Source of the DNA: Limnobacter sp. 130
GTDB taxonomy: Bacteria > Pseudomonadota > Gammaproteobacteria > Burkholderiales > Burkholderiaceae_B
Reading direction: 5' to 3'
DNA: 64,000 bases
Assembly (NCBI RefSeq): GCF_902506325.1
Contig: NZ_LR732330.1
Location: forward strand, 620,001 to 684,000
The position numbers and the translations under genes were made by a program. Each line of letters starts with the position of its first letter. Position 1 is the stretch's first letter. Positions 778-18,857 of the stretch are shown here, in pieces. A model generated the notes under the pieces. It was given only the letters and a program-made list of their open reading frames with translations, ran no database searches and was not told where the DNA came from.

Positions 778-1593
778 ATGATTCAGGACAACCTGTTCAA
801 CTACAAACGATTCGTCTTTCTGAAATGGGCCTTGCTGCTGACTCTCATTTCATCGTTTGCCTACCTTATTGACCAACCAAAAATCAATGCCAATGGTGGC
901 ACCTGGCTGGGCTACACCTTGGGAACCATCGGCGCTTTGCTGATTGTCTGGCTGATGTGGTTTGGGGTGCGCAAACGCCAGTATGCCAATGAAACGGGTA
1001 ACTTGCGCGGCTGGGTTTCAGCACACATTTATCTGGGTTTGGCTTTGTCTGTAGTAGCCACCTTGCACACGGGTTTTCAAATCGGCTGGAACATTCATTC
1101 ACTGGCCTATGTGCTGACCATGGCCACCATTGGCACTGGTGTATGGGGTTTAAGCTTTTACCTGCGCTACCCCACAGAAATGTCGAATGTGTTGAACCGC
1201 CAAAGCCCCGAACAAATTGTGGGACAAATTCAAACGCTTGATCGCGAGGCGCAAAAACTACTTAAAAACACGACCGACATGGTTACCCGCATCGTCAATG
1301 CCTCGCTGAATCAACACATTTTTTCCACTCGCAGAAATCAACGCAAAGGAACTGTGAAAGACTGCGCCACCGAAAAAGCGGTCCATTCTCTGCAGCAGGA
1401 AATGACGCGAATTGACGGACTTTCTGACATTTACGGAAATCAGGTTCAGCGCCTGCGCGCCTTGAAACAGCTACGCCGGTATTACCACATGCGTTATTGG
1501 CTTGAACTCTGGCTGTCTTTCCACGTTCCCTTGTCGTTTGGGTTGCTGGCAGCACTGATCGCACACGTGCTTTCTGTTTTCATTTACTGGTAA
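778..1593 (+). CDS. Four-helix inner-membrane protein, putative b-type cytochrome
   Basis: The 271-residue product has four clear hydrophobic segments at about residues 14-30, 42-63, 81-125 (two helices close together) and 240-270, with a charged coiled region between about 140 and 230. Histidines sit inside or beside the helices (SAHIYLGLALSVVATLHTG, NIHSLAYVL, FHVPLSFGLLAALIAHVLS), the arrangement expected for bis-histidine heme b ligation. It is the first gene of the operon and is followed after 6 bases by a membrane-anchored ten-heme cytochrome. The inferred role is quinone or electron exchange between the inner membrane and periplasmic cytochromes. I recognise no named family with certainty. 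Heme binding is inferred from histidine placement only. Confidence 0.75.
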   Translation: MIQDNLFNYKRFVFLKWALLLTLISSFAYLIDQPKINANGGTWLGYTLGTIGALLIVWLMWFGVRKRQYANETGNLRGWVSAHIYLGLALSVVATLHTGFQIGWNIHSLAYVLTMATIGTGVWGLSFYLRYPTEMSNVLNRQSPEQIVGQIQTLDREAQKLLKNTTDMVTRIVNASLNQHIFSTRRNQRKGTVKDCATEKAVHSLQQEMTRIDGLSDIYGNQVQRLRALKQLRRYYHMRYWLELWLSFHVPLSFGLLAALIAHVLSVFIYW

Positions 1594-1599
1594 GCGAAC

Positions 1600-3066
1600 A
1601 TGGCAGAACAAGAAAAAAGCCCGCTTCAACGTGAGCAACTGGCATTACAAAAGCCCTTGGGGTTAAAACGCCCCCTGTCGTGGATTCTTTTTGTCCCTAT
1701 TCTTTTCGCGTTTTTGATTTTGCCTTTGGTGGCCATGCAGGCACCTGAATTGTTTGGTGTTGAACAAACAAGTACGAACAAAGACCCACAAACGGTTCGC
1801 GCTGAAAAATTGCCCTTAAACGCACACCCGAGCCTTCAAAACACAGCGGCCCCAAACACACGCAACGCCACGGCTCTAGCACTCGATTCAATTTGGAATC
1901 CAGGTCCGCTTGCGTCTGCTCATTCGAATCTGGAGGGAGATTGCCAGGCCTGCCACGCCGGTGATTTTTCCCGTGTGAAAGATGAAAGCTGCATGGTGTG
2001 CCACAGCAACATGGGCTTGCATGTGGCCGAACAAACCTTGCCGAATACTTCATTTGAAGAAGGCCGCTGCGCCAGTTGTCACCGTGACCACAAGGGCCGT
2101 GAAAGCCTTGCCGAACAGAACAAACATTTTGTGGGTGCCGACTGCGCCACTTGCCACGCCGACATTCAAACCGTTGCCCAGAAAACCGAAACGCTGGCTG
2201 TCAGCGACTTTGCGGGCGACAAACACCCTGCATTTCGAATTACTGTTGCCACAGGTCCTGAACCCAGTGATTTGCGTAGAATTCGCATGGTGGCAAATAC
2301 CCCGGTTATCGAAAAAACCAGTCTGAAGTTTCCGCACGATGTTCACCTTGACCCCAAAGGAATCGACAGCCCAAGCAAGAAGGTGGTGATGAAATGCGCC
2401 AACTGCCACGAGCCCGCAGACACGGCAACCGGCTTTAAAAAACTAAGCATGGAAAGCCACTGCCAGGACTGTCACAAACTGAGTTTCGAACCAGCTTTGC
2501 CTGATCGCCAGGTTCCCCACGGACCTGTTGACGCCGTACTCAGCACTGTTGAGGAGTTTTACAGTTACCTTGCCCTTCATCCCGAAGAACGCAACAAAGT
2601 GAATGCTCAACGCGCTGTATTGCGCGCTCGCCCTGGCGAGAAAAACCCCAACAGGTCCAACCTGCGAAACCTGAGTGGCAATCCGCGTGCACAGGCTGCT
2701 TTTGCAACGGTGGAATTGTTTGAAAATACGGCTTGTGCCGTGTGCCACCAGGTGAAAGCTGTGGAGGGTTTGGGCAACACCAAAACCTCGGGCTCTAGAA
2801 TGCCGCAGTACCAAATTGCAGACATCAACCCAACGCATCCGTGGATGCCAATGGCCAAATTCGACCACAAGGCCCACGAATTTGAAAGCTGTGAGAGTTG
2901 CCACAAGGCAAGTCGATCCGAAGAAGCCAGCGAAGTACTAATGCCTTCAATAGAAGGCTGCCAAACCTGCCACGCTGGCAGCAAACCCGTGATGAACAAA
3001 GTGCAATCCAACTGTGGCGTTTGCCACGAATACCACATACACAACAAAGAAGTGGCAGCGAAGTAA
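1600..3066 (+). CDS. Membrane-anchored ten-heme cytochrome c
   Basis: The 488-residue protein has one hydrophobic helix at about residues 28-46 after a basic N-terminus, with no evident cleavage site, so it is probably an inner-membrane anchor with a periplasmic body. Ten CXXCH heme c motifs begin near residues 115, 131, 157, 182, 266, 288, 379, 431, 454 and 472. Extra histidines (HRDHKG, HDVHL, FDHKAHE, EYHIHN) could be distal ligands. The spacing resembles cytochrome c3/c7-like multiheme folds of the NrfB/NapC-associated type. It lies between the putative cytochrome b gene and the envelope components, so it would carry electrons across the periplasm. Partner and direction of flow cannot be read from sequence. 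Confidence 0.9.
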   Translation: MAEQEKSPLQREQLALQKPLGLKRPLSWILFVPILFAFLILPLVAMQAPELFGVEQTSTNKDPQTVRAEKLPLNAHPSLQNTAAPNTRNATALALDSIWNPGPLASAHSNLEGDCQACHAGDFSRVKDESCMVCHSNMGLHVAEQTLPNTSFEEGRCASCHRDHKGRESLAEQNKHFVGADCATCHADIQTVAQKTETLAVSDFAGDKHPAFRITVATGPEPSDLRRIRMVANTPVIEKTSLKFPHDVHLDPKGIDSPSKKVVMKCANCHEPADTATGFKKLSMESHCQDCHKLSFEPALPDRQVPHGPVDAVLSTVEEFYSYLALHPEERNKVNAQRAVLRARPGEKNPNRSNLRNLSGNPRAQAAFATVELFENTACAVCHQVKAVEGLGNTKTSGSRMPQYQIADINPTHPWMPMAKFDHKAHEFESCESCHKASRSEEASEVLMPSIEGCQTCHAGSKPVMNKVQSNCGVCHEYHIHNKEVAAK

Positions 3067-3067
3067 A

Positions 3068-3204
3068 AACGCCATTCGACGCAGTAACTTGAGTAGACAG
3101 ACCAGCAGTGAACTGGGGGCGCACAGGCAAGTGGGCCCATTGAACAACAAAGATGAGCGAGTTAGAAGTCGATGCGTACACGCACACACGCCGTGAATGG
3201 CGTT
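3068..3204. repeat. Widely spaced 10-bp inverted repeat around a start codon
   Basis: AACGCCATTC at 3068-3077 is the exact reverse complement of GAATGGCGTT at 3195-3204. The arms lie just after the stop of the ten-heme gene and just inside the next gene, enclosing its predicted start at 3172. In RNA this could close a long-range stem limiting translation of the lipoprotein gene. It may also be chance. Confidence 0.3.
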
Positions 3205-5142
3205 AAACAATTCAAACGAATTGCAATGGGAGTTGCCGTTTGTTTGGCCGCACCTTTGATTCTGGTGTCGTGCGGAGGCGGGGGCGGTGGTGACGGCCCG
3301 GCCTCCACCACGCCAAGTTTCAACGTTGAGCCTTTGGGAACACAGAGCCTGTCCATCGCGGAGATCAACGACATCGTGAGTCGCGCGATACAGGCTTCCA
3401 TTTCACGGGGCGTGCAATCCACCATTGCTGTCACAGACCGCGTTGGAAATGTGTTGGCAGTGTATCGAATGACCAACTCCAGCCCCAGCGTAATTATCAC
3501 CAGTGGATTGAGTGGTGCCGACGGGAAGGGGCTGGATGGATTCACCCCGGTGCCCAGCGAACTGGCTGCAATTGCCAAAGCAATTACCGGCGCTTACCTG
3601 TCTTCCACGGGCAACGCATTCAGCACCCGAACCGCCAGCCAGATTGTTCAGGAGTTTTTTCAACCAGGTGAAACAGGTCAGCCAAGCGGTCCCCTGTATG
3701 GTGTGCAGTTCAGTCAACTGCCCTGCTCTGACCTGAATGTGTGGCTTTCTCAAAACGCAACGATTGGACCCAAACGTTCACCATTGGGTTTGTCTGCAGA
3801 CCCAGGCGGATTCCCGATTTATCAGGAAGGACGTGTAGTGGGTGGAATCGGCGTGATCGCATCGACCGATGCCGGTACACAAGGCGTGTATGGACTCGAT
3901 CGCGACATTCTTACCAACGAAGTCGACCTTGAAGAAGAAATTGCGTTTGCTGCACTGCCTGAGGCATTCCGTGCGCCCGAGCAAATACGTGCCAACCGGA
4001 TTACCGCAAACGGTCAAACATTCCAGTTTTCCAACTCCACGCCCGCAGTGGCAGGGGCTGCTTCTTTGGCAGGCAATGGCAATTTTGTGGCCGTAACCGG
4101 CTACAAGGCAGCCGCCGGTGTGATCGCAGGAACCTCTTACGGCAACAGTCAATCGGGATACGTGGCCACCACAGCACCCGCTTTCAATGGCCTTGACACC
4201 TTTACCTTGATCACCAACCCGGCAGACAACACCTCGGTGCGTTTTCCGCCAATCGCTGGCGGCAATCTAACGCAGCCTGAGGTTCAAAATATTCTGGTTG
4301 AAGGGATGAAAATTGCCAACCGGGCACGGGCGCAAATTCGCATACCGTTGGGTGCAGCAGCGCAGGTCACGGTGAGCGTGGTGGACACGACCGGCCAAGT
4401 GCTTGGCTTGGTACGTTCTTCTGATGCGCCAATTTTTGGTACCGATGTTGCCGTTCAAAAAGCACGTTCGGCACTCGCATTCAGTTCAGCCGAGGCATTG
4501 ACTGATTTCACGGCAATTGATGCGGGCAACCATGCAGCCTTTGCCAATGCCATGAACACATTTTTCTCGCAAACTTCGAACGCATTAAACGGTTCAGCCG
4601 CCTATTCGGCACGTGCAATCGGCAATGTGCATCGGCCCTATTTTCCTGACGGTGAGGTTGGCACACCCAAAGGCCCCCTGTCGTCTCCAATTGCTGAGTG
4701 GAGCCCTTTCAACGTTGGTTTTCAGTTGAATATTGTGACCAACAAGGTACTGGGTACCCTGACGGCAACAACGCGCGTAGCGAATCAGTTTTCACCACCC
4801 GCAGCGCTGACCTGTGTGGATGATGGAAACATACCCGCAGGGCGACAAAGCCGCTTTGCCAATGGAATTCAAATTTTCCCGGGCGGTTTTCCGATTTACA
4901 AAGGCGACACATTGGTGGGCGCAATTGGTGTTTCCGGTGACGGTGTGGACCAGGACGACATGGTGGGCTACCTGGGTGTAATCAATAGCGCAGCGGCTGT
5001 GGGCAGCACCATGCGCCCATTTCCATCCACTTTGTTAACAGCCAACGAGTTGTCAAATTCTGGCGAATTCCTGAAATACGTGCAATGCCCTCAGACTCCG
5101 TTCAACAACAGCAGTGAACAAAACGTGTGCCCAACACCATGA
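3172..5142 (+). CDS. Lipoprotein with two HbpS/GlcG-like (heme-binding family) domains
   Basis: The 656-residue product has a lipobox-like LILVSC followed by a glycine run, so it is probably a lipoprotein. Two similar halves follow. Each starts with a helix-strand segment like the HbpS/GlcG family (SIAEINDIVSRAIQAS then IAVTDRVGNVLAVYR in the first; TQPEVQNILVEGMKIAN then VSVVDTTGQVLGLVR in the second). Each later has a matching GGFPIY motif (GGFPIYQEGRVVGGIGV near residue 215, GGFPIYKGDTLVGAIGV near 570). HbpS-like proteins bind heme or sense redox state, while others of the fold have unknown ligands. It sits between the ten-heme cytochrome and the barrel gene and overlaps the latter by ATGA. 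The start at 3172 has a weak ribosome site; 3226 is an alternative that would still keep the lipobox. Confidence 0.72.
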   Translation: MRTRTHAVNGVKQFKRIAMGVAVCLAAPLILVSCGGGGGGDGPASTTPSFNVEPLGTQSLSIAEINDIVSRAIQASISRGVQSTIAVTDRVGNVLAVYRMTNSSPSVIITSGLSGADGKGLDGFTPVPSELAAIAKAITGAYLSSTGNAFSTRTASQIVQEFFQPGETGQPSGPLYGVQFSQLPCSDLNVWLSQNATIGPKRSPLGLSADPGGFPIYQEGRVVGGIGVIASTDAGTQGVYGLDRDILTNEVDLEEEIAFAALPEAFRAPEQIRANRITANGQTFQFSNSTPAVAGAASLAGNGNFVAVTGYKAAAGVIAGTSYGNSQSGYVATTAPAFNGLDTFTLITNPADNTSVRFPPIAGGNLTQPEVQNILVEGMKIANRARAQIRIPLGAAAQVTVSVVDTTGQVLGLVRSSDAPIFGTDVAVQKARSALAFSSAEALTDFTAIDAGNHAAFANAMNTFFSQTSNALNGSAAYSARAIGNVHRPYFPDGEVGTPKGPLSSPIAEWSPFNVGFQLNIVTNKVLGTLTATTRVANQFSPPAALTCVDDGNIPAGRQSRFANGIQIFPGGFPIYKGDTLVGAIGVSGDGVDQDDMVGYLGVINSAAAVGSTMRPFPSTLLTANELSNSGEFLKYVQCPQTPFNNSSEQNVCPTP

Positions 5143-7379
5143 GCAAGAAGAACAACAACATCATGCGTTTAAAACCCTTGGCTGTAGGGCTGACTCTGGC
5201 AGGCCTGTTGCCCCTGCCAGCCATGGCGCAAATTCGGGCAGACATTCGAAGCGACACCAAACCCGATATTGTTGCGCAAGTCACAGAGACCGTTGAGAAA
5301 GTGGGTCGGAAAGTAGCGGGTATTCCAGAACTTGATGAACTGGACAACGCTGAACGCCCTTTGGTGTTGCTGCAGGTGTTTGACAACCGAAGTATTGTCT
5401 ATTCGAAACCGAACTCGGATTCGCGTGCAATTGGTGAGTTTTTCAAAGGGCAACTGGTGGATGCCTTTGAAGAAAAAAATGGATGGTACCGCGTCCGAAT
5501 TCAAGACAGCCTGCTAGGCAGCACGGATGGCTGGGTGCAACAAGGTACAGGTCAATATGGCGAACAATCCCTGGGTATTTTTGCGCCCAGAGCGTTTTCT
5601 GCCGATGTGCTGCAAGACCAGGCGGGCACGGGTATTCGCCCTTCGCAAAATGCAACGCCTGGTTTGGTGCCACAAGGCATACCCCAAACACCCCAGGTTC
5701 AACGTGCCATTCCTGGCCGAGACACCCCCATTGTGCCGCGCGACATTGCCATTCCGGTTATCGACCCTAGCCAGGTGCCCCCACCCTTGCCCAACCTGCC
5801 ACGCGAAACCGTGGCAGTGCCTGATCGCTGGCGGATCATGCAATCGCTGGGCTTCAAGTTTCCCTTGTACGACCCTTACAACCAAAACGTGATCAAGGGC
5901 GACCTGCCGGTGTTGCAAAACACATTGGGTCCTGACTGGTTTTTTAACCTGGGCATTATTGCTGACACGCTTTACGAACAACGCAACTTTCCGGTGCCTG
6001 TGCCCCCGGCAACTTCTACTACCAGTGGGCAAGCGAATATTTTTGGTAATGGCGAGCAGTCTATTTTTGCGCACAACCTGATCGTGAGTTTGTCACTGAC
6101 CAAGGGCAACACCACATTCAAACCACCCGATTACGAATTCCGTTTAACACCGGTATTCAACTACACCGATGTGCGGGTGAATGAAGACCGCTTGCTGAAA
6201 ATCTCATCCTCTTCAGGCGATGTTCGCCGCGAAGGCTTTGTGGGTATTCAGGAAGCATTTGTGGATGTGCACTTGCGAAACGTATCCGATCGATACGACT
6301 TCGACAGCCTGCGCGTGGGTATTCAGCCTTTCATCAGCGATTTCCGCGGCTTCCTGTTTCAGGACCTGCCCATGGGCATTCGCCTGTTCGGCAACCGCAA
6401 CAACAACATTTATCAGTACAACATTGGCTACTTCAAGCGGGTTGAAAAAGACACCAACAGTGGCCTGAACGACATTCGCCAAGACCTGCGCGACGATGAT
6501 TTTTTTGTCGCCAACCTGTACAGGCAAGACTTCCCGTTTTTGGGATTCACCAGCCAGGTTTCGTACATTCACAACCGCAATGATGAAGACGGCCAACGGT
6601 ACTTTGATGCGAATGGCTTTTTGGCACGCCCTTCCTCGCTGGGTGATCAAAAGCCGTTTGGCTACCACGTGGATTATTTTGGACTCAGCGGTGACGGCCA
6701 CTATGGGCGGCTAAACATTACAACCTCGACCTACTACGCCACAGGTAAAACAGATCGCCACCCACTGGCCCAACGTGAACAGAACATTGACGCGCTCTTT
6801 CACGCCACAGAGATTTCACGCGACTTCGACTGGTTCCGCCTGCGCGGCAGTTTCCTGTATGCATCGGGCGATAAAGATCCGTTCGACGGCAAAGCAGAAG
6901 GCTTCGATGCAATTTTCGAAAACCCCCAGTTTGCAGGGGCAGACACCAGCTTTTTCATCCGCCAGAATATTCCTTTGGTCGGTGGCGGCGGCGTGTTTTT
7001 ATCGGGTAGAAATGGCCTGTTGCCATCCTTGCGTTCAAGCAAGGAACAGGGGCAATCAAATTTCATTAACCCAGGCCTGTGGTTGGTGGGTGTGGGTGCC
7101 GATATCGATGTGTTACCCGAACTTCGTTTGGTTGCCAATTTGAACAAGCTGGAATTTGACAACACCAATGTGCTCGGTACTTTGCGCCAACAACGCCCGC
7201 CTTCGACTGATTTGGGTATTGATGCATCGGTGGGTTTTCAATACCGCCCATTCTTTTCCCAAAACATTGTTGTGAACGGCTCATTTGCCAAACTTTTGCC
7301 GGGCAAGGGTTACAAAGAACTGTTCCCCGAAGATGAAGATCCTTACTCGTTTTTGTTCAACGTGATTTTAAGTTTTTAA
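5139..7379 (+). CDS. Outer-membrane beta-barrel protein with SH3-like domain
   Basis: The 746-residue product starts at an ATG overlapping the upstream TGA (ATGA at 5139-5142), which suggests translational coupling. A signal peptide ends near LPLPAMAQ. Residues about 75-140 look like a bacterial SH3 domain (LVLLQVFDNRSIVYSKP, FFKGQLVDAFEEKNGWYRV, DGWVQQGTG). A proline-rich linker follows (about 165-225). The remainder has many alternating amphipathic strands with aromatic girdles and ends in SFLFNVILSF, a typical C-terminal phenylalanine of outer-membrane barrels. Its place among multiheme cytochromes suggests the porin part of a conduit carrying electrons through the outer membrane, analogous in role to MtrB/PioB but not visibly homologous. 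That role is inference; an ordinary porin is possible. Confidence 0.7.
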   Translation: MSKKNNNIMRLKPLAVGLTLAGLLPLPAMAQIRADIRSDTKPDIVAQVTETVEKVGRKVAGIPELDELDNAERPLVLLQVFDNRSIVYSKPNSDSRAIGEFFKGQLVDAFEEKNGWYRVRIQDSLLGSTDGWVQQGTGQYGEQSLGIFAPRAFSADVLQDQAGTGIRPSQNATPGLVPQGIPQTPQVQRAIPGRDTPIVPRDIAIPVIDPSQVPPPLPNLPRETVAVPDRWRIMQSLGFKFPLYDPYNQNVIKGDLPVLQNTLGPDWFFNLGIIADTLYEQRNFPVPVPPATSTTSGQANIFGNGEQSIFAHNLIVSLSLTKGNTTFKPPDYEFRLTPVFNYTDVRVNEDRLLKISSSSGDVRREGFVGIQEAFVDVHLRNVSDRYDFDSLRVGIQPFISDFRGFLFQDLPMGIRLFGNRNNNIYQYNIGYFKRVEKDTNSGLNDIRQDLRDDDFFVANLYRQDFPFLGFTSQVSYIHNRNDEDGQRYFDANGFLARPSSLGDQKPFGYHVDYFGLSGDGHYGRLNITTSTYYATGKTDRHPLAQREQNIDALFHATEISRDFDWFRLRGSFLYASGDKDPFDGKAEGFDAIFENPQFAGADTSFFIRQNIPLVGGGGVFLSGRNGLLPSLRSSKEQGQSNFINPGLWLVGVGADIDVLPELRLVANLNKLEFDNTNVLGTLRQQRPPSTDLGIDASVGFQYRPFFSQNIVVNGSFAKLLPGKGYKELFPEDEDPYSFLFNVILSF

Positions 7380-7395
7380 AGCAGGTTGTTTGTTG

Positions 7396-10300
7396 ATGAA
7401 TTTGAATAATGCCAAAGCAGCGCAAGCCAAACCAGCCAACCAGTTCCGTTGGCAGGGGTGGCTTTCTGCGCTCGGTTTCGCGCTGTTGTTCAGCGCGGGT
7501 GTGGCCCATTCAGCAAGCGACAATTTGCCAGAGAAAAGCTACACCATGGCGCCAGCTGCACCGGAGCGCCAAACCGCACAACAGGCCTTTGCAAAAACCG
7601 AAGGCTGCATGAGCTGCCACACGCAAACCGACCAGCACACCATGCATGCCAACCCAGGTGTGGTCATTGGTTGTACCGATTGCCACGGTGGTGATGCCAC
7701 AGTAAAGTGGAATGGGCCGGAGCAAAAGCAGGGTACGCTTGCCTACGACCACACACGTGCTGCACGCGAAAAAGGATTTGCACCCGAATACCGCGCTGCG
7801 CTGGACAAAGCCCACATTGCACCCCGCAATGAAAAGTTCTGGAACTACCCTTCTTCAGCCAACCCCAAGCGTTCTTATTCCAAACTGAACAAAGAACACC
7901 CGGCCTACATTCGCTTTATCAACCCGGGCGATCTGCGCGTGGCGCGCGAGGCTTGCGGGGCATGCCACCTGCCGGTGATTCAAGCGCAAGAACGCAGCTT
8001 GATGAGCACATCGGCCATGCTGTGGGGCGGCGCTTCGTACAACAATGGCATATTGCCTTACAAGCGCTACATTCTGGGCGAAGCGTATACGCAAGACGGC
8101 AAACCAGGCCTGTTGAAAAACCCGGTGGAAGCGAACAACGAACTGTTTGTACACAAAGGCATTTTGAATGAACTGGCGCCCTTGCCAGCGTGGGAAACCG
8201 CCCCACCCGGCGACGTTTTCCGGGTGTTTGAACGTGGCGGAAAGGTCATCAACAGTATTTTTCCGGAAGTGGGTTTGCCCAATGTGCTTGGTCAAATTCA
8301 GCGCCTGGATGAACCGGGCCGCCCAGACATTAAACAATCGAACCGTGGCCCCGGCACAGGCCAACGCATTGCGGTGCCGTTGATCAACGTGACCAAAACC
8401 CGCCTGAATGACCCACACCTTTGGTTTTTGGGCACCAACGAACAACCGGGCGATTACCGTTCATCGGGCTGCACAGGTTGCCACACGGTGTACACCAACG
8501 ACCGCGACCCAAGGCACGCAGGCCCCTACGCCAAGTTTGGTCACGACGGCACCACACAAACCATCGACCCCACCATTGCGAAAAATGAAAGTGGCCACCC
8601 GGTGAAACATGAATTCACCCGCGCCATTCCAAGTTCACAATGCATGGTGTGCCACATGCACCAGCCCAACGTGTTTGTGAACAGTTATTACGGCTACATC
8701 ATGTGGGATTACGAAAGCGATGCGCCGCACATGTGGCCGGAAAAGCAGCGTTACCCCACCGATTCTGAAATGCGTGAAATTCTGGACCGCAACCCCGAAG
8801 AAGCAGCAGTGCGGGGCAAGTGGAGCGACCCGGAATTCCTGAAGAATGTTTCAACGCTGAACAGCAAATTGAAAGACACCCAGTTTGCGGATTACCACGG
8901 CCACGGCTGGAACTTCCGTGCCGTGTTCAAACGCAACCGCAAGGGTGCATTGCTGGATGCGCAAGGCAACATTGTTGCCGACGACGACCCCAAAAAATTC
9001 GACAAGGCGGTGCATTTAAGCTCGATTCACCTGGACGTGGGCATGCACTGCGTAGACTGCCACTTTGCGCAAGACATGCACGGCAATGGTCATATTTACG
9101 GTGAAGTGGCTGCGGCTGTTGAAGTGGATTGTGCCGACTGCCACGGCACGGCCACCAAGTACCCCACGCTGCGCACCAGCGGCCCAGCCTCGCCCCCAGG
9201 CGGCACCGACCTGACCCAATTGCGTACGCAAGACGGCCGCAAGCGGTTTGAATGGCGCGATGGCAAGTTGTACCAGCGGGCGGCACTGGACCCCGACAAA
9301 GAATGGGAAATGAGCCTGGTCAAAGACAATATGAACCCGGCCCACCCGCAGTACAACGCCAAGGCCGCACGCGCCAAACTGATGGGTGCAGGCGCGGAAG
9401 GACAAGACGGGAAATGGGGCCCAGGCGTGAAGGAACTGGCCCACGACAACGACAAGATGACCTGCTTTACCTGCCACCTAAGCTGGACCACCAGCTGCGC
9501 GGGTTGCCACTTGCCGATTCAGGCCAACTGGAAAACCGAACGCTTGCACTATGAGGGTGGGGAAACCAGAAACTACGCCACTTACAACCCGCAAGTAGCG
9601 CGGGATGACATGTTCCAGCTGGGCGTACACGGCCCGGTGAAAGGCAATCGCATTGCGCCAATTCGCTCAAGCTCGGCCTTGATTCTTTCGTCGATGAACG
9701 CAAACCGCGAACGCATTTACATTCAGCAGCCGCCGATCTCAGCCAGTGGTTTTTCTTCACAAGCCTTTGCACCGCATTACCCACACACCGAGCGCAAAGA
9801 AGAAACCAAAACCTGTAGCGATTGCCACTTGTCTCGCGAAGATGACAACAACGCCATCATGGCGCAACTGCTTTTGCAGGGCACCAACTTCGTGAACTTC
9901 ATTGGTTTCAATGCATGGTTGGGTGGCAGCGAACACATTGCTGCAATTACAGTGACCGAATGGGATGAACCCCAAGCCGTGTTGGGCAGTTACCTGCACA
10001 AATACGCCTACCCCGATTATTACCAGAACCACTTGAACCGCAAGCGCGAACTGGCCGACACCGTGGTGCCAGCGTTAATGGACCACGCCACCAAGGGCGT
10101 GGCCAGTTGCATTCAGTTGCGTGGCGAGTACGTTTTTGTGGCCGAAGGCAAAGGCGGTTTCCGGGCCTACGACGCGGCCAGCGTGGCCAACAAGGGCTTT
10201 GGTCAGCGTGTAATTACGGCACCATTCAGCCCACTGGGGCACGACACCCATGTGGCCAGCAAAAATGCCACCTGCATGGCCTTGCCCACCAACCAGCCCA

Positions 10301-11280
10301 TCAACCCCGAGAAAAACCAGGGCGATTTGATGCGCATTACCAATATGGAACAGCCCTTCCACCCCATCTACAACTACGCTTTCATTACCGACAGTGAGGA
10401 AGGCTTGATTGCGGTGAATGTGAATACGCTGGCCGATGGCGAACCGCGCAACAACTTCTTTGAACGCGCTGTGACCTGGAATGAAAACGGGGTGTTGAAT
10501 GGCGCAAGCCACATTGCGCTGGGCGGGCATTACGCCTACATCACCACGCCCAAAGGGCTTGTGTTTGTTGATATCAACGACCCGCTAAAACCAAGGCACA
10601 TCACCACCCTGCCCTTGCAGGACGCACGCGCCACAGCGGTGCAATTCCGCTACCTGTTTGCCACCACCGCCAAAGGGCTGGAAGTGATCGACATTACCCA
10701 CCCTGAAAAACCGGAACACACTGGCGCAGTGGTGCCCATGGCCGATGCGCAACGCGTGTACCTGGCCCGCACCTACGCCTACGTGGCTGCGAAAAAACAA
10801 GGTTTGGTGATTGTGGACATTGAGCGCCCGCGCAAGCCCGTGGTGTATCAACAATTTACTGCTGACGGTCAGCTCAATGACGCGCATGATGTGGTGGTGG
10901 GTTCCACCAACGCATCACTGTTTGCCTATGTGGCCGATGGTGTGAACGGGCTAAAGGTATTGCAGCTTACCTCGCCAGACACACAGCCAAGATTTTACGG
11001 TTTTTCGCCTGCGCCCATGCCCGAGTTGATTGCGTGGCGTAAAACCCCAAGCCCGGCATTGTCTGTGTCGAAAGGACTGGATCGGGACCGTGCGGTCGAT
11101 GAAACAGGTGGGCAGATTGCGGTGTTTGGCCGCATTGGTTCTCGCCCCTTCACACGCAAGGAAATGGAAGCGTTTTACCTGCGGGCCGATGGCCGCTTGT
11201 GGACGGTGACCGACAAAGTTGAAAAGGAAAACTACTTGCCCAAGCCCAAAGTGAATTCAGTGGCTTTCAGAAAGGATTAA
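7396..11280 (+). CDS. Ten-heme cytochrome c fused to LVIVD-repeat propeller
   Basis: The product has 1294 residues from ATG 7396; a TTG at 7390 is an alternative, but GCAGG at 7381-7385 is better spaced for 7396. A signal peptide ends near SAGVAHSAS. Ten CXXCH motifs begin near residues 71, 93, 187, 359, 416, 552, 579, 690, 701 and 807. From about residue 900 to 1240 there are LVIVD-type repeats (GLVFVDINDPLKPRHITTL, GLEVIDITHPEKPEHTGAV, GLVIVDIERPRKPVVYQQF), which form beta-propellers in other surface proteins. The protein is secreted to the periplasm or cell surface. It is followed after 3 bases by the five-heme gene. Substrate or partner binding by the propeller is inference. Catalytic activity in the heme part cannot be excluded. 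Confidence 0.88.
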   Translation: MNLNNAKAAQAKPANQFRWQGWLSALGFALLFSAGVAHSASDNLPEKSYTMAPAAPERQTAQQAFAKTEGCMSCHTQTDQHTMHANPGVVIGCTDCHGGDATVKWNGPEQKQGTLAYDHTRAAREKGFAPEYRAALDKAHIAPRNEKFWNYPSSANPKRSYSKLNKEHPAYIRFINPGDLRVAREACGACHLPVIQAQERSLMSTSAMLWGGASYNNGILPYKRYILGEAYTQDGKPGLLKNPVEANNELFVHKGILNELAPLPAWETAPPGDVFRVFERGGKVINSIFPEVGLPNVLGQIQRLDEPGRPDIKQSNRGPGTGQRIAVPLINVTKTRLNDPHLWFLGTNEQPGDYRSSGCTGCHTVYTNDRDPRHAGPYAKFGHDGTTQTIDPTIAKNESGHPVKHEFTRAIPSSQCMVCHMHQPNVFVNSYYGYIMWDYESDAPHMWPEKQRYPTDSEMREILDRNPEEAAVRGKWSDPEFLKNVSTLNSKLKDTQFADYHGHGWNFRAVFKRNRKGALLDAQGNIVADDDPKKFDKAVHLSSIHLDVGMHCVDCHFAQDMHGNGHIYGEVAAAVEVDCADCHGTATKYPTLRTSGPASPPGGTDLTQLRTQDGRKRFEWRDGKLYQRAALDPDKEWEMSLVKDNMNPAHPQYNAKAARAKLMGAGAEGQDGKWGPGVKELAHDNDKMTCFTCHLSWTTSCAGCHLPIQANWKTERLHYEGGETRNYATYNPQVARDDMFQLGVHGPVKGNRIAPIRSSSALILSSMNANRERIYIQQPPISASGFSSQAFAPHYPHTERKEETKTCSDCHLSREDDNNAIMAQLLLQGTNFVNFIGFNAWLGGSEHIAAITVTEWDEPQAVLGSYLHKYAYPDYYQNHLNRKRELADTVVPALMDHATKGVASCIQLRGEYVFVAEGKGGFRAYDAASVANKGFGQRVITAPFSPLGHDTHVASKNATCMALPTNQPINPEKNQGDLMRITNMEQPFHPIYNYAFITDSEEGLIAVNVNTLADGEPRNNFFERAVTWNENGVLNGASHIALGGHYAYITTPKGLVFVDINDPLKPRHITTLPLQDARATAVQFRYLFATTAKGLEVIDITHPEKPEHTGAVVPMADAQRVYLARTYAYVAAKKQGLVIVDIERPRKPVVYQQFTADGQLNDAHDVVVGSTNASLFAYVADGVNGLKVLQLTSPDTQPRFYGFSPAPMPELIAWRKTPSPALSVSKGLDRDRAVDETGGQIAVFGRIGSRPFTRKEMEAFYLRADGRLWTVTDKVEKENYLPKPKVNSVAFRKD

Positions 11281-11283
11281 GCC

Positions 11284-12618
11284 ATGACAGCCCGTCTTCT
11301 TTTCTCGCCCGCAATCGCCTTTTTGGTGGGGATGCTTGCCATGCCCCTGACTGGCGCAGCGCAAACCATGCCACACCAGTCGCCCAACCAATCGGTGGGC
11401 ACCGTGAACTGCGCCAGCAGCACATGCCACGGCAGCATTGCCGAGCGCACAGCCACCCCTGTTTTACAAAATGAATACACCACTTGGTTGCGGCAAGACC
11501 CACACACCCAAGCCTATGCGGTGCTGAAAAACGCGCAATCCCAACGCATTGCAAAAAATCTGAAGCTTGCACAACCTGCGCATGAAGCCAAGGTGTGCCT
11601 GGATTGCCACAGCCACAATGTACCGGCCAGCAAACAAGGGCCGCGCTTTGACAAAAGTGATGGGGTGAACTGCGAGGCCTGCCACGGCCCCGCTGAAAAG
11701 TGGATTAAAACCCACGTGGAACCGAAAGCCAGCCACGCCAGAAATGTGGAAAACGGGCTGTACCCCACCAGCGACCCCTATGCGGTTGCAAAATTGTGCA
11801 CCGGCTGCCATGTGGGTGATTCCAGCCGCCCGATCACCCACCAAATCATGGGTGCGGGCCACCCGCGCATTTCAATCGAAGTTGAAACATTCATGGCGCT
11901 GGAGCCGCCCCATTACCGCATTGATGATGACTGGCGAGAACGCAAAGGTGCATTCGACACCGGAAAAATATGGGCGATGGGCCAGTTCGCCACCAGCGCA
12001 AACCTGCTGGAATTAATTGCTGACCCCAAGCGGAATCGCCAAGGCATTGTGCCGGAACTCATGATGTTCGACTGCCACGCCTGCCATTCACCCATGAGCA
12101 AGAAAGACTGGAGCAAAGACCTGGCACTGACCCCTGGCCAGCCACGCATCAACAATGCCAGCCTGATCATGGTTCAGGCCGTGGTTCGGGCCGCAGCACC
12201 CGCACAAGAACCTGCCTTGAGAAGCCTGATTGAGCAGCTTCACATTCAAAGCACATCGCCAGCGGCCAGCATGCAAGAGATTGAACGCATTGCGCGAAGC
12301 CTGAACAGCGAGCTAAACAGGGCCCGTTCTGTTGTGCAAAAGGTGTCATTCACTGAACCCATTATGGAAAAACTTTTGAAAGAATTGGTAACCATGGCCG
12401 CGAGCAACCAATACCCCGATTACGCCAGTGCTGAACAGGCCTACATGTCCATTAGCAGTGTAGCCAACGGCCTTGCAAACAAAGGCAATTCGCAACTGGC
12501 CAGTGCCGTGAATGCACGCATGGATCGCCTGCTGAGGTTATTGAACAATGACGAACGATATGACCGCAAACAATTCCAGACCGAACTGCTGGCGTTGAAA
12601 GCTGCGGTGGGGGGTTAA
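11284..12618 (+). CDS. Periplasmic five-heme cytochrome c (cytochrome c554-like)
   Basis: The 444-residue product has a signal peptide (cleavage near LTGAAQT). Heme sites are an unusual CX4CH motif (CASSTCH, near residue 43) and four CXXCH motifs near residues 105, 130, 172 and 264. The last reads CHACH. Motifs such as CLDCHSHN, GVNCEACHGPAEKW and GAGHPRI are typical of the cytochrome c554/hydroxylamine-related multiheme group. The C-terminal 150 residues are helical and heme-free. It lies 3 bases after the propeller cytochrome and 4 bases before the flavoprotein. A redox shuttle or small-molecule reductase role is possible; no specific substrate can be assigned. Confidence 0.85.
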   Translation: MTARLLFSPAIAFLVGMLAMPLTGAAQTMPHQSPNQSVGTVNCASSTCHGSIAERTATPVLQNEYTTWLRQDPHTQAYAVLKNAQSQRIAKNLKLAQPAHEAKVCLDCHSHNVPASKQGPRFDKSDGVNCEACHGPAEKWIKTHVEPKASHARNVENGLYPTSDPYAVAKLCTGCHVGDSSRPITHQIMGAGHPRISIEVETFMALEPPHYRIDDDWRERKGAFDTGKIWAMGQFATSANLLELIADPKRNRQGIVPELMMFDCHACHSPMSKKDWSKDLALTPGQPRINNASLIMVQAVVRAAAPAQEPALRSLIEQLHIQSTSPAASMQEIERIARSLNSELNRARSVVQKVSFTEPIMEKLLKELVTMAASNQYPDYASAEQAYMSISSVANGLANKGNSQLASAVNARMDRLLRLLNNDERYDRKQFQTELLALKAAVGG

Positions 12619-12622
12619 ACAC

Positions 12623-15100
12623 ATGTCCGACACGAACACGCGCATTACGCCAACCCCCATGTTCAGCGATCTGTCAGCTGATCTGGATATTGCAATTGTT
12701 GGCTCTGGCCCAGCGGGCCTGTCTGCCGCTGCGCGTGCGCAACAACTGGGTTGCAAATACGCGTTATTCGAATCAGAGAAACACGCATCGGACACCATTT
12801 ACAAGTACCAAAAGGGCAAGCATGTGATGGCTGAGCCCGGCTTTTTGCCGCTTCGCAGTGGCATGTCATTTGATGCGGGCAAACGCGAAAGTGTTTTGGG
12901 CACCTGGGATTCTCAGCTGCTTGATCAAAAAATCAATATTCAATACAAGAAAACAGTCAGCAAAATAATCAGGCTCAATGATGGTGCCGGCCCTTTTGAA
13001 CTGACCTGTGAAGACGGCACTACAACCACAGCCCGCACAGTGATTCTGGGCATTGGTCTACAGGGAAATATTCGAAAGATTGGCACCGCGGGCGACGACC
13101 TTCCCAATGTTCAATACACCTTGGCTGATCCTGATGAGTTCAACAATGAAACCATCATTGTGATTGGGGCTGGTGATGCCGCCATTGAAAACGCACTGGC
13201 CTTGATGAAAAACAACAAGGTGGTGCTGATCAACCGCAAAGATGAATTTGCCCGGTGTAAAGAAGGCAACCTGAATCAGATTCTTGCAGCAGACAGGAAC
13301 GAAGACCTGCGCATTTTCTACAACACGAGTACGAGTGCGGTCGAAGAAATGCCGGAGGCCAAAGACGGCGAGCCCACCCTGAACTACCGCTACAAAGGCC
13401 CGGAAGGTGAGCAGGCCATGCCCGTGCACCGAATCATTGCACGCTTGGGGGCGACACCGCCCCGTGGCTTGGTGGAAAGCTTCGGGGTGACCTTTCCCAA
13501 CAGCGATCCCAATGCAGTGCCTGCCCTGAGCGAAACTTATGAATCCAACGTACCCGGCCTGTTTATTGTAGGTGCCCTGGGCGGCTACCCTTTGATCAAG
13601 CAAGCGATGAACCAGGGCCATGAAGTGGTCGACTCGATCATGGGCCTGCCTGTGGTACCTGCAGACGAACCACTGCTCGCTGAGAAATTCATGCCCTTGG
13701 GTGATATTTCTGTCTCGGCCGTGCTTGACATGATTCTGGACAACGTTCCCCTGTTCAACCAGATGACCCGCCTTCAACTGCGTGAATTCATGCTGGAATC
13801 AACGCTGCACCAACCCAAGAAAGGCTCTGTCATCTTTCACAAAGGCGACTACACCAGTACTTTCTTTACAATTGTGCAAGGTGGCGTGGGCATTGAATTG
13901 GTGAACAAGGAAGGCAAGCCTTTTATCCTGAATCTCGACAAAGGCAATTATTTTGGCGAAATGGGCCTGATCTCCGGGCGACGCCGCACGGCCACGGTCT
14001 ATGCAGGAGAAAACTGCGTATTGATCGAAACACCTCGCAAAGCGATGTTGAAGTTGATTGCCTCGGTGGATGCGGTGCGCCGAACCATCGACGAAACGTT
14101 CGTGCGCCGCGCCCTGTCCACGCACCTTGCCCCACAGCTAGAGCCTCAGGAAATCGAACAACTGATTGCATCGGGCATCAGTGTGACCCGCTACGTACGG
14201 GGTGAAAAACTGTTCAGTGAAGGTGATAAAACCGACGGCTTGCACCTGATCCGACGCGGATCGGTGTCGGTGTCCAAATTGCTGGATGATCAGGATTCGG
14301 TGCTTTCTTATGTATCCGCAGGCAGCTATGTCGGTGAAATTGATCTGGTCAATGGCACAGACCGCCAAACCACTTGCACCGCCACGGTACTGACTGAAGT
14401 GCTGTTGATTCAAGCCGACGCGGTCATCGATGTATTGAGCAAAAACAGCAACTGGAAAAAAGCGCTGCAGGCCAAGATTGGCAAGCGCGTGCACGACGCT
14501 ATTTTTCGGGAAAGCACGGCAAAACGCGAAAGCGATCTGATTCATTTTCTGATGAAGCAAGGTTTGGGTGACGCAACCAACGCCTTGGTGATCGATGAAA
14601 ATTTGTGCGTGCACTGTGACAATTGCGAGCGTGCGTGTGCAGAAACCCACGATGGGATACCCCGCCTGGATCGCGACGCGGGGCCCACATTCCAGAACAT
14701 TCATCTGGCGCATTCCTGTCGACATTGCGAACAGCCGCATTGCATGAAAGACTGCCCACCCGATGCCATTCGCCGCAATGAAAAAGGCGAGGTAATGATT
14801 GCCGACACCTGCATTGGTTGTGGTAACTGTGCCAAAAATTGCCCATACAACGCGATTGAATTGCGCGTAAAACCACCCCCCAGAAAAACTGGCTTGTTGT
14901 CTTGGTTGCTCTTCGGTTCGGGCGGCCCCTTGGGCGAACGCCCTGTGAAGTACGATGCCAACGCCATCAAGAAAGCGTACAAGTGTGACTTGTGCCATGG
15001 CAAAGAAGGCGGCCCGGCCTGTGTTCGTGCGTGCCCAACCGGCGCTGCGTTCCGGATTTCACCCGAAGTGTATTTGAACCAGCAAAACGAACTGATCTAA
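12623..15100 (+). CDS. FAD/NAD(P) oxidoreductase fused to two cNMP-binding domains and a four-cluster ferredoxin
   Basis: The 825-residue cytoplasmic protein combines three modules. Residues 1-350 are a two-dinucleotide-fold flavoprotein of the thioredoxin-reductase-like class, with GSGPAG near 27 and GAGDAA near 178, but I see no redox-active CXXC. Residues about 385-480 and 505-605 are two cyclic-nucleotide-binding domains. Both keep the phosphate-cassette Gly-Glu and Arg (FGEMGLISGRRRTAT near 445, VGEIDLVNGTDRQTT near 571). Residues about 655-820 hold four cysteine clusters (CVHCDNCERAC 662, CRHCEQPHCMKDC 699, CIGCGNCAKNC 730, CDLCHGKEGGPACVRAC 788) like the DmsB/HybA electron-transfer subunits. 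It is the last gene of the cytochrome operon. A cAMP-gated exchange between NAD(P)H and the membrane is inferred. Confidence 0.88.
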   Translation: MSDTNTRITPTPMFSDLSADLDIAIVGSGPAGLSAAARAQQLGCKYALFESEKHASDTIYKYQKGKHVMAEPGFLPLRSGMSFDAGKRESVLGTWDSQLLDQKINIQYKKTVSKIIRLNDGAGPFELTCEDGTTTTARTVILGIGLQGNIRKIGTAGDDLPNVQYTLADPDEFNNETIIVIGAGDAAIENALALMKNNKVVLINRKDEFARCKEGNLNQILAADRNEDLRIFYNTSTSAVEEMPEAKDGEPTLNYRYKGPEGEQAMPVHRIIARLGATPPRGLVESFGVTFPNSDPNAVPALSETYESNVPGLFIVGALGGYPLIKQAMNQGHEVVDSIMGLPVVPADEPLLAEKFMPLGDISVSAVLDMILDNVPLFNQMTRLQLREFMLESTLHQPKKGSVIFHKGDYTSTFFTIVQGGVGIELVNKEGKPFILNLDKGNYFGEMGLISGRRRTATVYAGENCVLIETPRKAMLKLIASVDAVRRTIDETFVRRALSTHLAPQLEPQEIEQLIASGISVTRYVRGEKLFSEGDKTDGLHLIRRGSVSVSKLLDDQDSVLSYVSAGSYVGEIDLVNGTDRQTTCTATVLTEVLLIQADAVIDVLSKNSNWKKALQAKIGKRVHDAIFRESTAKRESDLIHFLMKQGLGDATNALVIDENLCVHCDNCERACAETHDGIPRLDRDAGPTFQNIHLAHSCRHCEQPHCMKDCPPDAIRRNEKGEVMIADTCIGCGNCAKNCPYNAIELRVKPPPRKTGLLSWLLFGSGGPLGERPVKYDANAIKKAYKCDLCHGKEGGPACVRACPTGAAFRISPEVYLNQQNELI

Positions 15101-15118
15101 GCTGAATCAGTTCGTTTT
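15084..15118. terminator. Bidirectional rho-independent terminator between convergent operons
   Basis: AAAACGAACTGAT (15084-15096) and ATCAGTTCGTTTT (15106-15118) form a perfect 13-bp inverted repeat with a 9-base loop that contains the TAA of the flavoprotein gene. A/T runs flank the stem on both sides, so it can end transcription of both the plus-strand cytochrome operon and the minus-strand cyclase operon. It also overlaps the cyclase stop codon at 15117. Confidence 0.75.
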
Positions 15119-17381: not shown

Positions 17382-17394
17382 GCCTTGACTGCCC

Positions 17395-18846
17395 TTATGG
17401 TGCGCACTGTGGTGCAGAGAAAGGCGGCGAAGACAGGGTAATGTCTTCAACGATAATGTCAGGCGGTGCAGTCAACAACTGAGGCGGCAAATTGGTTGAC
17501 GTTTGCACAAAAGCACCCTCGCCCCGATTGACTTCCAGCGGAGTTTGATTGGAGTTCGTGATCACGATCACACCATCATTCACAGCCACATAAAGCTGTG
17601 CTCCGCCTTCAGAGTCAGCGCCCTGCTGCAAGGACTGCACTGGCGTGGACGACAAGGATTCAAAATTCGCGGGTGTTGTCTCGGGCAATGGTCCGGCATT
17701 GGGTACATTACCCAACACATTGGGCAACGAATTGATGACCTGAATTTTCACATTGCCTGCAGGAATGATTGCAGACTGCCCGGCATTAATCACGGAATTC
17801 ATGTCACCCGAGGTCACAATAATTTGCCCGTCTCGAAGCTCAACCGTCAGGTTGGCCCCGCCAGAACACACGACCAGTCCGCCTGCGGCTGAAGTGCACG
17901 AAATATCAATTGCAGTGCCCCGAATACCCACCGTTGCAGTTTCTGTGAAAAACTTCACATTGTTGGGTTCCGCCTTGGCGATTGCGCCCGTAACGGCGCG
18001 TACCGCACCTTTCAACAACTTGAACGATGCCACTGATGTTTGGGGCGAAGCGGGTGCATAACGATAAGCCGCCACCTGCATGGAGCTACCCCCCGGCAAG
18101 GTCAAACGGGTGGAATCTGCCATGCTGAGCACGGCATAACCACCCTCAGGAACATCCACCGTTTCGCCTGCAAACACCGCGGCGCCCTTTTGCAGGGGAC
18201 GGCGTTTTCCATTTGACGAAATGGCGAACAACTCGCCGGTCAATTGCGACACGCGTCCTGCTACATCTGAGGTGGAGGTGTTCGTCACAGTGGCTTTCTC
18301 AGACTCACCCTTGGCAAGGCGATTACACTCGTTGCCATTACAAATTCGAGCGGAGAAATCGGTGCCTCGAATACCAATGGTTGCGGTTTCGCTTTTCAGT
18401 GCAAAGGCATCTGCACTGCCCCGCTTGCCGATCAAACCAGTCAAGGTGCGCAACCCCCCTTTCACCAGTTTAAATTCTGCCTTGTCGGCTATCGGCTGTT
18501 CGGGCTGATACTCGTAGTTCTCAACCACAAAGCGCGTGTTGGGCCGCAAGGCCACTTGCGTGGTGTCCACAAATTCAAGCACCGCCGTACTTTTGGCCTG
18601 CGTATTAATGACATCGCCCACGTTCAGTTTGGTCCCTGCACTGGCGAATTTGTTTTTGCCTTCGGCAGTTTGCAAATTCACCAAACCAGTCACCACCTTG
18701 ATACTACCGACGATTGCCTTGGTCGGTTGATTGCTTGCTGAAGCGCCTGCAGGTGCCAGGTCTTTCGATTGAATATTCTGGGCCAAGGCAGGGTTGGTGC
18801 CCGCGAAGGTGAAGGCGAAAAGTCCAAGGGCCAATAATTTATGCAT
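17395..18846 (-). CDS. Periplasmic protein with two FecR domains
   Basis: The product has 483 residues with a signal peptide (LLALGLFAFTFAG, cleavage near PALAQ). Two FecR-like domains follow, each ending in the family hallmark: TATIGIRGTDFSARIC near residue 165 and TATVGIRGTAIDISC near 305. Each has the preceding FKLVKGGLRTLTG or FKLLKGAVRAVTG strand, so it is an internal duplication. The C-terminal 150 residues are low in features and end in CAP. There is no TonB-system sigma factor nearby. FecR domains are often found next to CHASE2 cyclases, so it is probably a periplasmic partner of the cyclase downstream. GAGG 9 bases before ATG 18846 supports that start; ATG 18861 would overlap the TpsA stop as ATGA. 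Confidence 0.82.
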   Translation of the reverse strand: MHKLLALGLFAFTFAGTNPALAQNIQSKDLAPAGASASNQPTKAIVGSIKVVTGLVNLQTAEGKNKFASAGTKLNVGDVINTQAKSTAVLEFVDTTQVALRPNTRFVVENYEYQPEQPIADKAEFKLVKGGLRTLTGLIGKRGSADAFALKSETATIGIRGTDFSARICNGNECNRLAKGESEKATVTNTSTSDVAGRVSQLTGELFAISSNGKRRPLQKGAAVFAGETVDVPEGGYAVLSMADSTRLTLPGGSSMQVAAYRYAPASPQTSVASFKLLKGAVRAVTGAIAKAEPNNVKFFTETATVGIRGTAIDISCTSAAGGLVVCSGGANLTVELRDGQIIVTSGDMNSVINAGQSAIIPAGNVKIQVINSLPNVLGNVPNAGPLPETTPANFESLSSTPVQSLQQGADSEGGAQLYVAVNDGVIVITNSNQTPLEVNRGEGAFVQTSTNLPPQLLTAPPDIIVEDITLSSPPFSAPQCAP

Positions 18847-18857
18847 GTTGTAGGTCC

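Follow-up and report, generated by a model that had tools for sequence, protein, structure and literature searches.

A seven-gene cytochrome and flavoprotein cassette of Limnobacter sp. 130 as a candidate envelope electron-transfer unit with separable inner and outer modules

Introduction

Where would electrons go from a gene cluster that specifies 25 heme c sites, a soluble flavoprotein and an outer-membrane barrel? This question is raised by a locus of Limnobacter sp. 130, in whose 3.28-Mb genome we analyzed a stretch of 64,000 nucleotides (hereafter the window). Positions 778-15100 of the window are occupied by seven genes on the plus strand, here named g1 to g7. A preliminary description, made from the sequence alone, had seen in them a seven-gene operon for a complete electron conduit across the envelope. 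Outer-membrane electron conduits are mostly discussed as respiratory or lithotrophic systems linked to the quinone pool; the organisms bearing this cassette are presumably aerobic heterotrophs.

The analysis presented here indicates that the seven genes very probably specify an envelope electron-transfer unit that reaches the outer membrane. To the narrower reading, in which a system of the porin-cytochrome class, composed of two modules, transfers electrons outward to an external acceptor, we assign a probability of about 0.5.

Locus layout and conservation of the gene set

All seven open reading frames (ORFs) were confirmed on the plus strand. The predicted proteins g1 to g7 are 271, 488, 656, 750, 1296, 444 and 825 amino acids long (Table 1), and the junctions between their genes measure +6, +105, -16, +10, +3 and +4 bases. 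Five of the six are thus tight, and the single 105-base gap is real. The count of 25 heme c sites also stood: there are ten CXXCH motifs in g2, ten in g5, and four in g6 together with one CX4CH motif. When the g2, g5 and g6 sequences were shuffled (2000 shuffles each), the mean number of CXXCH motifs was 0.01-0.04 and the maximum was 2. Two of the genes probably start slightly later than their ORFs. Met5 of g4 (ATG at 5139) is at least 95% conserved in 67 aligned rows, and with this start the g3/g4 overlap would become ATGA; Met3 of g5 (ATG at 7396) is conserved in 93% of 85 rows.

Relatives of g5 were obtained by scanning a species-level genome collection, and the best 80 of 254 constitute the 80 loci considered below; 37 of these are well flanked, g5 having 9.5 kb or more on either side. 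The per-gene counts are restricted to complete ORFs, whose starts a script assigned, and the alignments (A1-A3) comprise the window plus up to 33 selected loci. Among named organisms, the closest g5 relatives are from Limnobacter (94-96%). A check of gene order in relatives, as the preliminary description had suggested, revealed all seven genes in 50 of the 80 loci, a set with many members truncated by contig ends, and in 35 of the 37 well-flanked loci, which are labelled as Alpha-, Beta- and Gammaproteobacteria. The two exceptions are L056, with only g3-g4-g5 nearby, and L066, without g6. The barrel and flavoprotein genes, whose presence next to the cytochromes in related genomes had been named as decisive for the conduit proposal, were both found: g4 lies directly before g5, with g3 present, in all 61 loci having 4.5 kb of upstream sequence, and g7 is present in 36 of the 37 well-flanked loci.

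The order of the genes is that of the window (g1 to g7) in 20 loci and g7-g1-...-g6 in 18; nine more have this second order with g6 reversed, and the remaining 33 are truncated or rearranged. A small protein is encoded between g2 and g3 in five loci (e.g., L045:5898-6314 and L050:5807-6328), and the one tested gave no Pfam match. Genes resembling those for cytochrome c maturation, which were named by eye and not by family search, occur near 12-14 of the 80 loci, mostly upstream.

Co-occurrence was surveyed in 397 genomes of the phylum. Full-length g5 was found in 13 of them, g4 in 14 and g7 in 17, and 12 further genomes gave only partial matches to g5, in the propeller or the heme motifs. Every genome with g5 also carries g4 and g7, and every genome with g4 carries g7 (Fisher p 2-3e-23). 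Within the genus, g5 occurs in 14 of 16 genomes, that of the window included (one in pieces with a stop, one cut). At the thresholds used, g5, g4 and g7 were absent from G004, a genome of the same genus rated 100% complete.

The divergences of all 21 gene pairs were found to correlate (r 0.59-0.88, with none of 500 permutations as high) in 42 loci, the number remaining once near-copies had been taken out of 48 rows in which each of the seven genes is complete; shared host ancestry alone would also be able to produce such a correlation. The g5 tree, from which 13 of 85 rows (close Limnobacter-type copies) were left out, mostly tracks the classes. Silanimonas sits inside the Betaproteobacteria-type group, which makes a transfer likely. 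The labels of L018, L028, L045 and L050 (Klebsiella pneumoniae, Mycobacteriaceae, Marinimicrobia) clash with their placement in the tree among Proteobacteria of other families, and these loci are probably mislabelled or misbinned. To judge by its conservation, the set of seven genes is one unit.

Inner and outer modules

In three genomes (G394, G350 and G435) the cassette is divided into two separate blocks, g7-g1-g2 and g6-g3-g4-g5. Moreover, three of the 17 genomes with g7 (G446, G093 and G060) are without g4 or g5. In G446, g2-g1-g7 is followed by genes for two proteins of the g6 type, a barrel of 542 residues that ends in F and a five-heme protein of 593 residues, and the CXXCH counts of this second cassette are 5, 4 and 10. 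The barrel is unrelated to g4 as judged by BLAST (E 0.89) and by profile comparison (probability 0.1%).

Barrels of the G446 type were identified in 11 of the 36 genomes of its order. Seven of the ten further barrel regions show the arrangement five-heme protein / barrel / g6-type / g6 / g7 / g1; g2 is present in five of these seven, and the other two are cut at a contig end. Among the remaining three regions, one is cut earlier by a contig end and two are divergent. Since the same inner module, together with g6, lies beside an unrelated barrel, it appears that a single inner module (g7-g1-g2, with g6) works with two distinct outer ones. We consider this sharing to be the strongest argument for an electron conduit.

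Three genomes speak against a strict tie of the inner module to an outer one: in G093, G493 and G060 the triad g7-g1-g2 is present without a recognized outer module in the fetched stretch, with the G060 triad lying at a contig end and G493 being kin of G093, in whose class g7 occurs in 2 of 48 genomes. The model of g4 has an AlgE/OprD-like fold and so leaves transfer to the surface unproven. An ordinary solute porin, which the preliminary description had named as evidence against its proposal, is compatible with this fold but not demonstrated by it. The earlier claim that the design covers every compartment is supported as far as the outer membrane, with components that belong to the cytoplasm, the inner membrane and the periplasm as well.

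Cofactor sites of the inner module

Five histidines of g1 (His83, 97, 107, 249 and 263) are invariant in 59 of 59 rows. Two HX13H motifs occur in all 59 rows and two WX3HX13H motifs in 58, while SGXXG is found in 51 and [ST]GXXG in all 59, the version of the window being TGVWG. At E <=0.1, Pfam matches in the g1 family were to Ni_hydr_CYTB (b561) in 23 of 33 members and to Ferric_reduct in 7 of 33. According to the available sections of PMC5566968, two WX3HX13H motifs and SGXXG are the shared mark of the inner-membrane proteins of the porin-cytochrome clusters PCC3 and PCC4, and HX13H is likened there to the b-heme pair in ferric reductases, NOX and cytochrome bc1. By its sequence, g1 is judged to hold ligands for two stacked b-hemes. 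It had been described as a four-helix protein. A hydropathy scan alone placed three helices above threshold; a reading of the sequence, together with the five helices that the available text of PMC5566968 gives for the same motif family, indicates that g1 probably has five.

The ten CXXCH motifs of g2 are present in 57 of 59 complete homologues, with nine in the other two, and 45 of 60 rows show the hydrophobic stretch at the N terminus. Ten additional histidines are invariant in 60 of 60 rows. There are ~36 residues per heme, compared with ~33 quoted for MtrA homologues in the available part of PMC5566968. A single-sequence structure search with g2 gave a weak partial match to cytochrome c7 (E 0.003). 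Against TIGR03508 (DmsE/MtrA-type decaheme), g2 and g6 scored 25.8 and 22.5 of 192.2 bits, respectively, which is below the cut-off. In g2, g6 and g5 alike, the invariant histidines suffice in number for bis-His ligation of the c-hemes.

The cytoplasmic protein g7 has the FAD and NAD(P)H folds in Pfam and matches PF00027 in two stretches (E 6.7e-34 for the protein). Its 16 iron-sulfur (Fe-S) cysteines are present in 65 of 65 proteins; the CDLCH sequence is part of these cysteines and is no heme site. Single-sequence structure searches gave clearer matches for g7 than for g2 and g6; its Fe-S part matched formate hydrogenlyase subunit 2 and HycB3 chains, and it resembles four-cluster subunits such as HycB. 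GxGPxG is conserved in 65 of 65 proteins, the nucleotide motif GAG[DN] in 57 and Arg205 in 62, the last of which suggests NADPH as the substrate. No CXXC was found within residues 1-340 in any of the 65 proteins, and the flavin part would therefore be closer to ferredoxin-NADP+ reductases of the thioredoxin-reductase type than to disulfide reductases; thioredoxin reductase proper was rejected on the same ground. In the first cyclic-nucleotide domain, Glu446 and Arg455 are present in 65 of 65 proteins.

The outer components

A lipobox pattern was found in 43 of 62 rows of g3, which conserves four cysteines and no histidine at >=95% and matched GlcG/HbpS-type chains in a single-sequence structure search. 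The CX4CH motif of g6 is present in 77 of 77 rows and its four CXXCH motifs in 76 of 76 complete homologues, with a lipobox-like pattern in 34 of 77 rows; the same type of search gave a weak partial match to c554 (E 0.25). Sequence profiles of g1, g4 and g5 gave no believable match among solved structures.

An AlphaFold2 (AF2) model of g4 has ~17 long strands by a count of the DSSP line, and its predicted fold is an AlgE/OprD-like barrel, a fold of solute and polymer channels (AlgE, OprD/Occ). The score of g4 against PF13372 (AlgE), 14.4 of 25.2 bits, lies below the Pfam gathering score, and 4 of 34 family members matched at E <=0.1 (best 0.0047). Neither g4 nor 65 of its 66 complete homologues contain CXXCH, and Cyc2 was rejected because no heme motif is fused to the barrel. 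MtrB/PioB was also rejected: PF11854 matched neither g4, up to E 1, nor any protein of the whole genome, the latter search having a weak control, with 1 of 14 control genomes matched, below the cut-off. No MtrB-type chain was among the 50 matches listed in a comparison of the g4 fold, which does not argue for its absence.

The ten CXXCH motifs of g5 are present in 84 of 84 complete homologues. Alignment with hhalign to ExtM-like proteins gave a probability of 100% (E 6e-40, 535 columns), and the score against Geobacter ExtM (NF040943), 61.2 of 800 bits, is below the curated cut-off; by these comparisons g5 is related to ExtM at the superfamily level. For the ExtM family search in the genome of the window, none of the 14 control genomes gave a match. 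Only the propeller of g5 is well modelled. Of 1200 residues, 536 have a predicted local distance difference test score (pLDDT) below 50, nearly all in the cytochrome half, so that the heme packing is unreadable from the model.

ExtM-like cytochromes with ten to twelve hemes were also seen in four other genomes of the phylum (L112:8047-10425, L113, L114 and L115). A family search of two of these proteins gave no propeller match. No adjoining cassette gene was seen by eye near the four, where barrels were not searched for.

The AlgE/OprD-like fold of the g4 model and the ExtM kinship of g5 keep alive an explanation in which the acceptor is soluble, g4 would be a selective channel for a small oxyanion or organic compound, and g5 would reduce this acceptor in the periplasm, as in an Ext-like system. 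It would suit the shape of g5, which is globular and not wire-like, and the Geobacter extI mutant, which reduces less selenite and tellurite and for which the authors favor a (selenite) channel role in the available text of PMC5877670. However, g4 matches no ExtI model in NCBIfam, the ExtM score of g5 is low, and no selenium or tellurium phenotype was found for the cassette. Moreover, a tellurite reductase purified from an aerobic phototroph, as far as its partial description goes, has subunits of 62 and 55 kDa, unlike g5. We regard a soluble acceptor as unlikely.

Comparison with known systems

The closest published counterparts appear in PMC13264449 (June 2026), whose available sections describe eleven clusters with a decaheme gene of 4-5 kbp beside a porin of ~20 strands, a ferredoxin-NADP+ reductase near 7 of the 11, and a porin-cytochrome cluster in a Limnobacter metagenome-assembled genome (MAG). 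The first-group clusters of that paper appear to be the same system in outline, matched by description and not by sequence; its available text does not place the cluster of the Limnobacter MAG in the first group. The definition used there comprises a cytochrome with at least 10 heme motifs (here g2 and g5), a further c-type cytochrome nearby (g6, with 5 sites) and a porin with at least 10 transmembrane strands (the predicted g4 model). The same sections make no mention of a b-type cytochrome, an anchored ten-heme protein, a lipoprotein, cyclic-nucleotide or Fe-S domains, or modularity.

PCC4, as described in the available part of PMC5566968, resembles the cassette in an inner-membrane protein with two WX3HX13H motifs and SGXXG, as in g1, in the presence of a porin, and, by number, in its 10-heme and 4-heme cytochromes; its pfam13247 Fe-S protein corresponds to Fer4_11 in g7, but in PCC4 it is a separate gene found in one subgroup. 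PCC4 differs in having 4, 5 and 10 hemes and no extracellular cytochrome, compared with 10, 10 and four CXXCH plus one CX4CH in the window, which additionally has the ten-heme propeller cytochrome and the HbpS-like lipoprotein. By motif and heme counts, the G446-type cassette would fit the description of PCC4 better than the window does; judged from that description, PCC4 also shares the inner module. PCC3 was rejected, its median heme numbers being 34 and 21 in comparison with 10, 10 and 5 in the window. The preliminary statement that no family of the Mtr/Pio/Cyc2 kind is recognizable was thus too strong, given the PCC3/PCC4 motifs of g1, the relationship of g5 to ExtM, and the 2026 clusters.

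The Geobacter extHIJKLMNOPQS (Ext) genes share with the cassette a porin, multiheme cytochromes, a cytochrome b and an Fe-S protein, and g5 falls in the ExtM superfamily; in contrast, a Rieske protein and a cytochrome b of the bc1 type belong to Ext, no propeller was matched in the ExtM-like proteins of this study, and g4 matches no ExtI model. The likeness to MtrCAB/PioAB lies in one operon with a barrel and two ten-heme proteins, as in Mtr; the differences are that neither g4 nor the genome matches the MtrB/PioB family and that the seven proteins have no NapC/CymA domain over the cut-off. An input of electrons from NAD(P)H and FAD to two stacked b-hemes held by HX13H pairs also recalls NOX and ferric reductases, a comparison made in the available text of PMC5566968, but the FAD domain of the cassette is of the thioredoxin-reductase type, on a separate soluble Fe-S protein, and its periplasmic partner is a ten-heme protein. 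The available part of PMC12175321 assigns mtrA, mtrB and mtrC to sediment Woeseiaceae.

In the open-access literature, with subscription papers and supplements outside its scope so that earlier descriptions may exist, we found no account of the seven-gene set, of a cyclic-nucleotide/Fe-S flavoprotein or of module exchange. The cassette can be regarded as a new version of a predicted class of envelope electron-transfer systems, of which no test was found in that literature.

Proposed route and direction of electron flow

In the outward reading, NAD(P)H would reduce the FAD of g7, and electrons would run along its Fe-S chain to the b-hemes in g1 and so cross the inner membrane. From g1 they could reach the anchored, wire-like g2 and then g6, and cross the outer membrane through or at g4, with the lipoprotein g3, to g5 and an external acceptor. 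Binding of a cyclic nucleotide to g7 may regulate the electron input, and the inner module g7-g1-g2, with g6, may act as a general supply into which different outer modules plug. The sequences directly show which cofactor sites are present and which genes belong to the set; we infer the order of transfer, its direction and the acceptor. Outward flow is favored by the constant presence of a soluble NAD(P)H flavoprotein and by the lack, in all seven proteins, of a NapC/CymA domain over the cut-off. The only match to NapC/NirT (PF03264) was that of g6, with E 0.26 and 11.4 of 24.1 bits, and the route through a NapC/CymA quinol dehydrogenase was rejected on this basis.

Flow in the opposite direction seems doubtful. 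Here g5 would oxidize external Fe(II), Mn(II), reduced sulfur or an organic compound, electrons would enter the quinone pool at g1, and g7 would act as a regulator or as a side branch leading to NAD(P)+. He et al. drew such a direction for PCC4, which was found in Fe(II) oxidizers (available text of PMC5566968), and the HX13H pairs of g1, like those of bc1 and FRD, could meet quinone. Cultivated Limnobacter oxidize thiosulfate, according to the available sections of PMC13264449, but the Limnobacter MAG described there has a complete thiosulfate sox set anyway. A carbon-fixation pathway was reported in those sections for only 3 of 36 MAGs bearing porin-cytochrome clusters, and their authors suggest export for most. 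Inward flow also sits badly with the fused NAD(P)H, FAD and four-cluster protein in 36 of 37 loci, and the reduction of NAD(P)+ by such donors would be uphill, with no evident pump.

That the locus exports no electrons and instead serves envelope redox homeostasis or polymer export, its cytochromes keeping thiols, heme or metals reduced, is highly improbable: the HbpS/GlcG-like lipoprotein, the AlgE-like barrel and the neighbors resembling cytochrome-maturation genes would suit it, but the 25 conserved heme sites, the division into inner and outer modules and the existence of a second cassette with a different barrel fit a conduit better.

Returning to outward transfer, we tentatively suggest that export gated by cyclic nucleotides and driven by NADPH is widespread in aerobic heterotrophic Proteobacteria, with an inner engine that bypasses quinone and outer modules interchangeable according to the acceptor. 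If this is true, Limnobacter, Steroidobacter, Halieaceae, Silanimonas and Woeseiaceae could on command direct electrons of NADPH to the envelope or out of the cell, and recombination would have joined one inner engine to different barrels. The cassette offers a clear gene set for testing the role of such systems in aerobes.

Table 1. Positions in the window of the seven genes and their principal features
Feature	Position	Strand	Basis
g1, di-heme b-type inner-membrane cytochrome (b561/ferric-reductase-like), predicted	778..1593	+	conserved His, WX3HX13H motifs
g1, first WX3HX13H motif, residues 79-97	1012..1068	+	
g1, second WX3HX13H motif, residues 245-263	1510..1566	+	
g2, ten-heme cytochrome, N-terminal membrane anchor	1600..3066	+	10 CXXCH, hydrophobic stretch 28-46
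g3, lipoprotein, HbpS/GlcG-like domains	3172..5142	+	PF03928 E 4.5e-24
g4, outer-membrane barrel (predicted), N-terminal SH3 domain	5127..7379 (start probably 5139)	+	
g4, barrel part, residues 271-749	5937..7373	+	AF2 model
g5, ten-heme ExtM-superfamily cytochrome, C-terminal propeller	7390..11280 (start probably 7396)	+	
g5, ten-heme region, residues 73-813	7606..9828	+	
g5, propeller, residues 839-1231	9904..11082	+	
g6, exported five-heme cytochrome, c554 family	11284..12618	+	PF13435 E 1.3e-10
g7, thioredoxin-reductase-type FAD/NAD(P)H domain, two cyclic-nucleotide-binding domains, four [4Fe-4S] sites	12623..15100	+	Pfam
g7, FAD/NAD(P)H domain, ~residues 21-335	12683..13627	+	Pyr_redox_3 E 2.3e-27
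g7, best-scoring cyclic-nucleotide-binding domain, residues 399-480	13817..14062	+	PF00027
g7, four-cluster Fe-S domain, residues 655-810	14585..15052	+	Fer4_11 E 2.7e-9 (whole protein)

Possible cyclic-nucleotide control and neighboring genes

Directly downstream of g7, on the opposite strand, lies a gene for a CHASE2-adenylate/guanylate cyclase (15117-17450, minus strand), followed by one for a FecR-domain protein (17395-18867, minus strand). Five of the 80 loci, including L025, also contain relatives of both genes. The cyclase is a possible source of the nucleotide for g7; as this neighbor is found in only five loci, the link to cyclic nucleotides rests on the domains of g7 and not on a conserved neighbor.

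Upstream of 58 cassettes, sites resembling those of FNR, CRP and Fur were found in 11, 7 and 0 loci, compared with shuffle expectations of 4.7, 4.8 and 1.2, and these counts point to no convincing regulator and give no sign of Fur control. No clear palindrome was seen when the upstream regions of seven loci of the Limnobacter type were aligned with that of one further locus.

In several Gammaproteobacteria the cassette is followed by genes for a PP2C phosphatase (in 9 loci) and for a protein with an FHA domain (in 12), examples being L044:15000-21068 and L061:15068-16862; a Ser/Thr kinase family occurs near four. Next to the FecR and cyclase genes of the window lies a two-partner secretion pair, consisting of a TPS exoprotein (18858-24077, minus strand) and a ShlB-type translocator (24089-25741, minus strand). 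A patatin-like phospholipase with a cyclic-nucleotide-binding domain (26570-28309, minus strand) is a second cyclic-nucleotide-binding protein in the window. Further away, a metallo-beta-lactamase-fold protein (45962-46711, minus strand), which we take to be persulfide-dioxygenase-like, is encoded beside a TauE/SafE exporter (46758-47672, plus strand), and this gene pair is possibly involved in sulfur oxidation.

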